From Sporichthya polymorpha DSM 43042 (GTDB lineage: Bacteria; Actinomycetota; Actinomycetes; Sporichthyales; Sporichthyaceae), in contig NZ_KB913029.1 of the NCBI RefSeq assembly GCF_000384115.1, positions 1,832,907-1,896,906 of the forward strand: a DNA stretch of 64,000 nt, read 5' to 3'. Positions 34,325 through 35,948 of the stretch are shown piece after piece. Both the position numbers and the translations under genes were made by a program. The notes under the pieces were generated by a model that worked only from the letters and a program-made list of their open reading frames with translations, had not been told where the DNA came from and made no database searches. Positions within the stretch are counted from its first letter, which is position 1. Each line of letters begins with the position of its first letter.

Positions 34325-34849
34325 ATGAAGATCCACCTCGCAGCGCTTCCCATCGCCGTGGCCCTGGTGCTGGCCGGCTGTGGCGGCGATGACGACGAAG
34401 ACGCCACCGCCGAGACGCCGGAGATCGCCGACGGCACCTTCTCCGGGACCTTCGCCAAGGTCGCGAGCGCCCCGAAGGGCACGAAGAAGATCGGCGGCAC
34501 CGCCGAGATGGTGCTCTCTGCCTCGGGCACCGAGGTCTCGCTCTCCGCGAGCAACCTCGACCCGAAGGCGAAGTACGTCGCCCACGTCCACGCCGACTCG
34601 TGCGACGCGGAGGACCCGGGCGGCGCCCACTACCAGTACACGCCGGGCGGTGGCGACATGCCGCCGAACGAGCTGCACCTGCCCGTGACCGTGAACAAGA
34701 ACGGCAAGGGCAAGGGCGAGACCACCAACCCGGTCAAGGCCGGGCCGGAGGCCAAGTCGGTCGTCATCCACCTCAAGCGCGCCGCCGGCGCCAAGAAGGA
34801 CGAGGCGAAGCCGCCGAAGCTCGCCTGCGCCGACCTGGCCGCTTCCTGA
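34325..34849 (+). CDS. Cu/Zn superoxide-dismutase-like lipoprotein
   Basis: 174 aa. Lipobox LVLAGC at 14-19 (Cys19) gives a membrane-anchored exported protein with an Asp/Glu-rich linker. The body has SOD-like order: YVAHVHADSC (HxH metal-type pair plus Cys), GGAHYQY, SVVIHL and a late Cys (KLACADL). The electrostatic-loop ligands of true SodC are not evident, so it may be a non-catalytic relative. The tail is Lys/Pro-rich. Confidence 0.7.
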   Translation: MKIHLAALPIAVALVLAGCGGDDDEDATAETPEIADGTFSGTFAKVASAPKGTKKIGGTAEMVLSASGTEVSLSASNLDPKAKYVAHVHADSCDAEDPGGAHYQYTPGGGDMPPNELHLPVTVNKNGKGKGETTNPVKAGPEAKSVVIHLKRAAGAKKDEAKPPKLACADLAAS

Positions 34850-34862
34850 CCGGTCGCCCGAG

Positions 34863-34998
34863 GTCAACAAGGGGTGACACCCCTTGTTGACGTGGTCGTA
34901 CGAACTCAATAAGGGGTGACGCCCCTTGTTGAACGGCTGTGATGTCAAGAAAGGGTGACACCCCTTACTGCGCAGTAGGGGGTGTCACCCTTTTCTGA
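34863..34998. repeat. Three related palindromes in one intergenic gap
   Basis: Element 1 (34863-34891) has perfect 14-bp arms gtcaacaaggggtg/caccccttgttgac. Element 2 (34906-34932) is tcaataagggg..gccccttgttga with wobble pairs. Element 3 (34945-34998) is a long hairpin with aagggtgacacccc arms and a ctgcgcag centre. All share the word aaggggtgacacc or its complement. They lie between the SOD-like and fpg genes and may end transcription, but three copies go beyond a normal terminator. Confidence 0.9.
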
Positions 34999-35057
34999 CG
35001 GCGGGGGTTCAGCGACGCGGGGCGACGGATCCGGGCGAGTTCTTGCAGACTGGGCGC

Positions 35058-35948
35058 GTGCCCGAGCTGCCTGAGGTCGAGTCACTCCGCCGGCTGCTGA
35101 CCGAGGAGGCCGTCGGCCGCGCCGTGGTGCGGGTCGACGTGGCCGCGATCAGCGTCCTGAAGACCTACGACCCGCCGTTCACTGCCCTGGCCGGCATGTT
35201 CGTCACCTCGGTGGCGCGGCACGGCAAGTTCCTCGACGTCGAGGTCGGCGGTGAGCTGCACCTGATCGTCCACCTCGCCCGCGCGGGCTGGCTGCAGTGG
35301 CGGGACAACCTCCCGCCGGCACCCCCGAAGCCGGGCAAGGGGCCGCTCGCGCTGCGGGTTCACCTCGGCGAGCGCGACGACGACCCGCCCGGCAGTGCGT
35401 ACGGCTTCGACCTCACCGAGGCGGGGACGAAGAAGGGCCTGGCCGCGTACTGCGTCCGGGATCCCGCCGAGGTGCCCGGCGTCGCCCGCCTCGGGCCCGA
35501 CCCGCTGTCGGAGGACTTCACCCCTGAGCAGCTCGGCGAGCTGCTCGCCGCCGCGGGGCGCTCCCAGATCAAGGGCGTGCTGCGCGACCAGTCGGTGATC
35601 GCGGGCATCGGGAACGCCTACTCCGACGAGGTGCTGCACGCCGCCCGGCTCTCGCCGTTCAAGCCGGCGAACTCCCTCGACGCCGAGGGCGTGGCCGCGC
35701 TGCACGCGGTGATCCGGGGGACGCTCGCCGACGCGATCGCCCGCTCGGACGGACTGGAGACGAGTCAGCTCAAGCGGGAGAAGAAGGCCGGTCTGCGGGT
35801 CCATGCCCGGACCGGGCAGCCCTGCCCGGTCTGCGGGGACACCGTCCGCGAGGTGTCCTTCGCGGACTCCTCGCTGCAGTACTGCGCCACCTGTCAGACG
35901 GGCGGGAAGCCGCTGGCGGACCGGCGGCTCTCCCGGCTCTTGAAGTGA
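35058..35948 (+). CDS. Formamidopyrimidine/endonuclease VIII-type DNA glycosylase
   Basis: 296 aa. GTG 35058 makes the mature N-terminus PELPEVESLRRLL, with catalytic Pro2 and Glu3, so the longer frame starting at 35043 is rejected. The H2TH region (QIKGVLRDQSVIAGIGNAYSDEVL) and a C-terminal zinc finger (CPVC ... YCATC, then GGKPLADRRLSRLLK) are present. It excises oxidised bases and nicks the backbone. The lysine normally near residue 57 of Fpg is in GKFLDVEV. Fpg or Nei subtype is uncertain. Confidence 0.93.
   Translation: MPELPEVESLRRLLTEEAVGRAVVRVDVAAISVLKTYDPPFTALAGMFVTSVARHGKFLDVEVGGELHLIVHLARAGWLQWRDNLPPAPPKPGKGPLALRVHLGERDDDPPGSAYGFDLTEAGTKKGLAAYCVRDPAEVPGVARLGPDPLSEDFTPEQLGELLAAAGRSQIKGVLRDQSVIAGIGNAYSDEVLHAARLSPFKPANSLDAEGVAALHAVIRGTLADAIARSDGLETSQLKREKKAGLRVHARTGQPCPVCGDTVREVSFADSSLQYCATCQTGGKPLADRRLSRLLK

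Follow-up and report, generated by a model that had tools for sequence, protein, structure and literature searches.

Palindromes at the window site

What are the three related palindromes that follow a stop codon in the window (the whole 64-kb stretch of DNA analyzed here), and what might they do for the genes around them? The cluster at 34863-34999 consists of two single dyads (type A) and one inverted pair of about 56 bp (type B), with a common core, GGGTGWCACCC, that is exact or one letter off. The first type A unit (34863..34891, no strand) is a 29-bp perfect dyad, GTCAACAA-GGGGTGACACCCC-TTGTTGAC, centered on A34877, and starts 13 nt past the stop codon of the upstream gene. The second (34906..34932, + strand) is a near-perfect dyad whose core, GGGGTGACGCCCC, is one letter off GGGTGWCACCC; in the RNA fold, both of its imperfect pairs are U.G wobbles in the + strand RNA. 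The type B unit (34944..34999, no strand) is an inverted core pair 27 bp apart with a long stem and A/T-rich shoulders. Its cores are at 34953 and 34980, its tetraloop GCGC is at 34970-34973, and its single mismatch lies near the foot of the stem.

The palindromes come after the stop of a gene on the + strand (34325..34849) that encodes 174 aa, with an N-terminus that appears lipoprotein-like by eye and without a Pfam match. The downstream gene on the same strand, fpg (35058..35948), encodes formamidopyrimidine-DNA glycosylase (Fpg), as identified by Pfam. The original prediction held that three related palindromes with one core fill a 136-bp gap. The palindromes and their common core are confirmed by sequence, folding and Markov simulation, whereas 136 bp is the span of the palindromes and the gap from the upstream stop (34849) to the Fpg start (35058, or a TTG at 35043) is 193-208 bp.

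RNA folding of 34850-35010 gave -102 kcal/mol, compared to -58.7 (sd 4.5) for 200 dinucleotide shuffles (z -9.7), none of which folded equally well. The window has three copies of the exact core GGGTGWCACCC; of 60 simulated 64-kb sequences (first-order Markov), 56 had none and 4 had one. A two-mismatch search for GGGGTGACACCCC in the window returned 8 matches against a shuffle mean of 4.46, a number reached in 6/100 shuffles and not significant alone. Rfam reported nothing at gathering score at the element. Eight sub-threshold microRNA matches (E 0.0016-0.54) were taken as hairpin noise, and a known RNA family was rejected.

A genome-wide family of hairpin units

The genome of the window (G000; 5.5 Mb, G+C 72%) was compared to two genomes of the same genus, G001 and G002, and two of the same family, G003 and G004. 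Its G+C content and its DUF222 genes suggest an actinobacterial host. In G000 the exact core, GGGTGACACCC, has 272 copies, 127 forward and 145 reverse, and AAGGGGTGACACC has 72 copies, 37 forward and 35 reverse; the reversed controls gave 0 for both. AGGGTGWCACCC has 227 matches, a count in which places with A and T at both ends appear twice. A small palindromic repeat family had been proposed, which was right and understated, as the genome holds hundreds of copies; the core search, genome-wide and in both orientations, excludes the case of no other copy, one half of the result that was to refute the proposal. About 270 near-identical hairpin-forming units make up the G000 family, mostly directly behind genes.

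Two unit types recur. Among 167 exact cores in the fetched G000 stretches, 98 form pairs with a spacing of 26-28 bp (type B) and 69 are single (type A), single status being judged by exact cores. Type B has the layout GTcAAgAAAGGGTGACACCCCTTACT-NNNN-AGTAAGGGGTGTCACCC..., and type A the layout GTCGACAA-GGGGTGACACCC-cTT.TcgAC. The longest arrays in the family contain six units. Up to 2.17 Mb, G000 clusters average about 20 per Mb. Some 410 kb of G000, at about 131-543 kb, is without the core and is perhaps an acquired region.

Places with GGGTGWCACCC number 297 in G002, 4 in G001, 4 in G003 and 6 in G004 (reversed-core controls 0, 3, 1 and 1, respectively). Beyond the genus the family is nearly absent, with matches in 3/60 genomes, one of these with a single match. 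The type B pattern has 67 matches in G000 and 93 in G002; no other genome among 393 drawn from the class contains it. Its 38-bp form has 0 matches in viral_contigs, and a viral origin was rejected. A wide distribution was likewise rejected: AAGGGGTGACACCCCTT has 17 matches in genome_contigs, where G000 was possibly left out, one per stretch and in scattered taxa, with two of the 17 from one Bacteroidales bin. A literature search by title found no paper reporting the family and, for the word GGGTGACACCC, no paper on bacterial repeats; subscription papers were mostly outside this search.

The units lie close behind stop codons

Gene positions come from a codon-usage caller, not from an annotation; the caller learned from these stretches and was then also applied to G001 and G003. 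Many loci were fetched for carrying the core. On this basis, 49 of 80 G000 clusters are in convergent gaps, 28 in tandem gaps, 1 in a divergent gap and 2 within called genes. All gaps of at least 40 bp in the same stretches comprise 81 convergent, 206 tandem and 119 divergent ones. Across 264 kb of contiguous sequence, the core is present in 6/44 convergent, 5/155 tandem and 0/45 divergent gaps. Besides the window, this sequence includes two stretches selected for the copies in the matching G002 contig; the density is therefore above the genome average, but the spread over gap types was not chosen.

Clusters have a median distance of 21-23 nt to a stop codon, the few outlying distances possibly reflecting missed genes. 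In tandem gaps the median distance to the upstream stop is 21 nt, with 25/28 clusters within 60 nt, and the median distance to the next start is 126.5 nt, compared to a median of 30 for all 155 tandem gaps of the contiguous stretches. Tandem clusters therefore sit in long gaps close behind the stop, at likely operon ends. In convergent gaps, 89/98 stop distances are within 60 nt. A stable hairpin shortly behind a stop codon, as expected of an intrinsic terminator, is present in G000; for single G001 units this feature is weak. Promoter regions, where an operator would be expected, are not the location: 1/80 clusters is divergent, and tandem clusters are near the upstream stop.

The original prediction had argued that a terminator needs one hairpin and that a cluster of three is something else. 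That argument is unsupported, given that copies are at gene 3' ends and almost never between divergent genes; it is also countered by the A/T-rich shoulders of type B, as in bidirectional terminators. The orientation of the GAC/GTC center to the upstream gene was unconvincing (8 sense, 4 antisense in uniform clusters). Searches for tRNA and Rfam genes beside outlying sites (11 sources each, 10 common) found no RNA gene adjoining the element. At G000 3244937 (L040), two type A units are within a called gene, in a stretch that by eye is open in more than one frame.

Base pairing and terminator-like features

Across 47 type B units, the two W centers form an A-T pair 40 times, a T-A pair 5 times and no pair twice. 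The type B tetraloop has nine versions (GCGC 26, GCGG 8, CCGC 6 and six others), with the stem kept throughout. Outer pair 19 is paired in 40/47 units, compared to 28.6 expected from independent columns, with A-T switching to G-C. Among 67 distinct type A units, pairing is above expectation at pair 9 (31 vs 23.9), pair 11 (51 vs 29.0), pair 12 (34 vs 27.8) and pair 14 (51 vs 37.1), barely above it at pairs 10 and 13, and without excess covariation at pairs 6-8 (36 vs 35.6, 57 vs 55.6 and 55 vs 55.7); members of one array are related, hence these type A counts are not independent. Together, the compensating changes in some arm pairs and in the type B centers indicate that pairing is selected. 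At type A pair 6, G.T was observed on the A-centered strand 24 times and the mirror case, A.C, 7 times.

Reading outward, there are 4.85 T per 8 nt beside type B and 3.43 beside type A, compared to 1.28 in intergenic DNA. A TransTerm-like tail score is -3 or lower for 79% of B ends, 30% of A ends and 0.9% of random sites. The T-rich tail is thus enriched in G000; it is absent in G001, and a simple consensus terminator scan called no terminator-like site at the window element. The scan misses the element because the T run lies inside the stem, paired with the A run, leaving little free U tract.

Shared positions and unit turnover in a second species

Most of G002 contig C4 (192.6 kb) is collinear to G000, with an identity of about 90-95%. 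It holds 11 clusters, in 9 of which G000 has the family at the same gap; of the remaining two, one is past the contiguous G000 stretch and one (72377) has anchors 2 kb apart in G000. Within the collinear stretch, the family is common to both species in 9/9 anchored gaps. Considering all 48 G002 clusters examined, 21 were anchored and 27 were not, and G000 has the family in 20/21 of the anchored gaps, many of the G000 loci among those 20 having been fetched for carrying it. The sole G002 site between divergent genes is remnant-like in G000.

The units themselves change. The string of exact units differs between G000 and G002 in 14/20 gaps, and at the window site G002 keeps type B and has another hairpin instead of the two single dyads. 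Across 8 ortholog pairs of identical or almost identical layout, the core letters match in 154/155 aligned columns (1 gapped), the core columns being set by an exact core in either species; the middle agrees in 106/112 columns, and the rest of the gap in 282/333 with 108 gapped columns.

A different arm sequence in a third species

G001 lacks the GGGTG family; its DNA has about 75-85% identity in most aligned stretches, and less in some. Places with GRATGWCATYC number 107 in G001, compared to 1 in G000, 1 in G002, 12 in G003 and 1 in G004 (control 0), and all but one of those listed for G001 are GGATGWCATCC. In the G001 sequence examined, 27 clusters with GGATGWCATCC comprise 13 tandem, 11 convergent, 3 coding and 0 divergent, on a background of 146 tandem, 35 convergent and 56 divergent gaps. 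G001 therefore has its own family, located in convergent and tandem gaps in 24/27 clusters, with similar pairs and arrays and, in part, at the gaps that carry the GGGTG family in the other two species.

The G001 unit reads CAAC-GGATGTCATCC-GCAGCG. Besides single units there are direct arrays with a spacing of 25-27 bp, inverted pairs spaced 17-27 bp and pairs separated by 59 bp. The units carry no T-rich tail, with 1.1 and 2.3 T per 8 nt. Single units fold weakly (-7.8 kcal/mol), and some direct arrays are without a long hairpin. In four places (L214, L216, L224 4741 and L230), GGATG dyads 59 bp apart frame an inverted repeat, CTCTCGACCGC...GCGGTCGAG; this framed type is a longer composite hairpin with four copies in G001.

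Of the gaps that have the GGGTG family in G000 or G002, nine align to G001 on both sides, and 5/9 have a TGWCA dyad there: GGATG units in three (L208, L218 and L227 4140) and a GGCGTGWCACGCC dyad in two (L213 and L227 1238). Another hairpin is present in three (L122, L206 and L217 5703), and L215 has only a 7-bp stem, as judged partly by eye and later by a stem finder. At L208 the 27-bp inverted layout is also common to G001. Of two gene ends aligned on one side, L119 has a long hairpin in G001 and L185 has none. Viewed from G001, the anchored GGATG clusters occupy seven gaps: three carry the GGGTG family in G000 or G002 and four do not (L217 4164, L219, L221 and L226).

A common TGWCA center

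TGWCA is the center of GGGTGWCACCC, GGATGWCATCC, GGCGTGWCACGCC and a second family in G000 and G002, GGAGATGWCATCTCC. The last, searched as AGATGWCATCT, has 21 matches in the G000 stretches: 16 in tandem or convergent gaps, 4 in coding sequence and 1 in a divergent gap. When odd palindromes of intergenic DNA with arms of 6 or more are ranked by center, TGWCA comes first in the stretches of G000 (8/26) and G002 (7/21), ties for the lead in G001 (2/12) and is not leading in G003 (3/18) or G004 (1/17). Among arm-5 dyads in all fetched G001 sequence, part of which was fetched for such dyads, the TGWCA center occurs 67 times, compared to at most 12 times for each of seven other W centers. Families with different arms are all centered on TGWCA, which suggests that the shared entity is a TGWCA-centered dyad with lineage-specific arms, or dialects. 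The genus seems to share this center rather than the arms, with thin support outside G000 and G002.

In G003 and G004 there is no TGWCA dyad at the six orthologous gene ends compared, nor in the region upstream of the fpg orthologs. Two words of G003 were set aside: GCATGWCATGC, a candidate third dialect, forms only 4 clusters, 2 of them divergent, and is not claimed, and GGATGWCATCC is coding in 9/11 cases in the G003 stretches and is considered background.

A multicopy gene beside the dyads and other repeated hairpins

All 9/9 copies of a multicopy DUF222 gene for which the 5' side was retrieved have an upstream dyad, at 171-270 bp from the aligned coding part. A dyad was the reason for fetching seven of these loci, and the remaining two are mutual orthologs. 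Two of the genes were assigned to DUF222 by Pfam and the others by similarity. By eye they have an HNH-like motif at the C-terminal end, and HNH is reported by neither Pfam nor NCBIfam. In G000 and G002, DUF222 genes were found in repeated blocks recognized by eye (L014, L037, L056, L133, L060, L066, L159 and L175); upstream of them are GGGTG dyads and, in most cases, GGAGATG dyads as well. No DUF222/HNH-like gene was found in about 450 kb of G001.

Other hairpins are also repeated. The long hairpin CGTCCGA-GATGTGG...CCACATC-TCGGACG, not TGWCA-centered, has six copies in 795 kb of G000 (L021 6547, L038 4068, L039 7654, L048 2026, and L110 14444 and 15028). The hairpin ACGTCAGCGGGATCG...CGAT-CCGCTGACGT is repeated in G000 (L110 172-233 and L141 4449-4496) and in G002 (L092 1258 and L093 6766). 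A further long hairpin, CCCGAAAGCGCAGT...CTGCGCTTTCGGGG, is located at L049 3399 in G000, and similar sequence is present in G001 near 950 of L122.

Likely role of the hairpins

We favor, at a probability of roughly 55%, the reading that the elements are bidirectional 3'-end or terminator hairpins forming a REP/BIME-like family without a REP transposase. On this reading, the window palindromes would belong to a family of 3'-end hairpins that is specific to the genus. Whichever side it is transcribed from, an element would fold into a stem-loop directly after the stop codon, and this stem-loop would most likely end transcription and/or fix and protect the mRNA 3' end. Between convergent genes a single element would serve both, and clusters would probably sum to stronger punctuation. 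The computation directly shows that the family exists, where it sits, that some pairs change in compensating ways, that positions are shared while units turn over, and that the sister species has a dialect of its own. Termination we infer from sequence; the units presumably spread and are kept alike by copying between sites, through slippage, recombination or a putative mobilizer, and the TGWCA center would be kept by selection or by the copying process.

Counting against a terminator, the core is nearly invariant although terminators need no particular letters. The core served to find the copies, so this invariance is partly a choice of data. The negative consensus scan, the type A pairs 6-8 without excess covariation, the G001 gene end at L185 without a hairpin and the lack of TGWCA dyads at the few gene ends compared in G003 and G004 also count against it. 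The pure terminator reading is also weakened by the G001 units, which are T-poor and weak when single, and a factor reading TGWCA and a tolerated selfish repeat remain serious rivals for this reason.

The elements may instead be a REP/BIME-like selfish repeat without host function, copying itself and persisting where insertion harms least, behind genes. We consider this unlikely, although it would fit the multi-unit mosaics in direct and inverted order with arrays of up to six units, the unit strings that differ in 14/20 ortholog gaps and the near-absence outside the genus (3/60 genomes; type B in 2/393). The dyad upstream of multicopy DUF222 genes also recalls a transposase gene flanked by its repeats. 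As in REP/BIME, the units are 20-40 bp extragenic palindromes in high copy and partly in mosaics. However, no Y1 transposase was found: a search for PF01797 (Y1/RAYT transposase) gave 0 matches in G000 and was positive in 5/14 control genomes. The GTAG tag of the GTAG class of REP is within 22 nt of the core in just 4/69 single units. With both the transposase and the tag missing in G000, the family is not a GTAG REP, though REP/BIME-like in behavior; it may still be of the CGTC class. REP tags and RAYT are treated in the available part of PMC3733652, where CGTC-tagged REPs are said to lack a dedicated transposase. Single units have CGTC on 40 of their 138 sides, in 33 cases at a constant position 10 nt from the core; 22/40 of these tags have at least 3 of 4 bases paired to the dyad partner, and 5/40 have at most one. 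A selfish repeat is further disfavored by the positions common to both species in every anchored gap of the collinear stretch, by the only divergent-gap site of G002 looking like a remnant in G000, and by the 21 anchored gaps, among which no clean insertion with target duplication was seen by eye. The narrow unit-to-stop distance, the compensation of some pairs and the lack of a DUF222 relative in the 450 kb of G001 argue in the same direction.

Quite unlikely, in our judgment, is the protein-binding array that the original prediction also named, with a sequence-specific protein (nucleoid, insulator or roadblock) recognizing TGWCA and the dyad arms in DNA. The recurrence of TGWCA with different arms (GGGTG, AGATG and GGATG, and GCGTG in few places), its lead among intergenic odd-palindrome centers in G000 and G002, the lack of a firm orientation of uniform clusters to the upstream gene, the G001 direct arrays at 25 bp and the weak, T-poor G001 units are all consistent with such a protein. 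The clusters are not placed like regulator sites, with only 1/80 between divergent genes, spacings are irregular by eye, and TGWCA does not lead in G003 or G004 and only ties in G001. In addition, type B tetraloop variants lose palindromy and keep the stem, which fits a folded strand better than a DNA dyad site. Highly improbable is a DNA uptake sequence as in Neisseria and Haemophilus, with secondary terminator use and species dialects. A short word, inverted pairs at gene ends and sister-species dialects would match it, but uptake sequences generally have at least 1000 copies, according to the available part of PMC1852404, compared to 272 exact copies here. Many uptake sequences are within genes, compared to only 2/80 clusters within called genes here, and the unit is itself a dyad.

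A more speculative combination, which we hold only tentatively and think improbable, is suggested by the shared center. TGWCA dyads would be 3'-end punctuation in which a putative factor reads the center, in DNA or RNA, and the arms need only pair. The change of arm dialect would have been concerted across whole genomes (giving GGGTGWCACCC in two species and GGATGWCATCC in a third), and units would be replaced constantly at fixed gene ends. In the GGGTG species, the multicopy DUF222/HNH-like nuclease gene, with the same dyads upstream, may drive the copying.

The family bears on a general assumption. Terminators are usually regarded as free to vary in sequence, and in this case hundreds of hairpins at 3' ends have letters in common, stay in place from one species to the next and, in a sister species, are different as a set. 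The sister genomes make a reading factor and copying between sites directly testable as sources of this homogeneity, a question that is also open for REP-like repeats in genomes without a REP transposase.

Comparison with known systems

Bidirectional Rho-independent terminators of the TransTermHP class, as described in the available part of PMC1852404, resemble the elements in having hairpins behind stops, convergent gaps and A- and T-rich shoulders. The elements differ in letters common to hundreds of sites, little free U tract, clustering and the T-poor G001 dialect. Hairpin clusters acting as terminators (PMC8355165, available part) are similar in that several hairpins behind a stop codon are proposed to act jointly; those clusters derive from short predicted hairpins in inter-operon regions, and that part of the source does not describe a repeat family in them. 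Stem-loop families are covered in the accessible portion of PMC2267715, and in that of PMC12306157 REP is distinguished from terminators by the T tail.

REP/BIME, from what the same part of PMC3733652 sets out, are likewise extragenic palindromes of 20-40 bp that number in the hundreds and stand alone or in mosaics of both orientations. In contrast, the present family has no GTAG tag, no Y1 (RAYT) in G000, compensated arms and a sister-species dialect; and compared to CGTC REPs, it has CGTC at the fixed place in fewer than half of single units. Neisseriaceae uptake sequences, in the consulted text of PMC1852404, offer a parallel in which a repeated word forms terminator hairpins, and their DUS dialects are a parallel for related species using different letters. 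Here, the copies are fewer, the word is itself a dyad and it is rarely located within genes.
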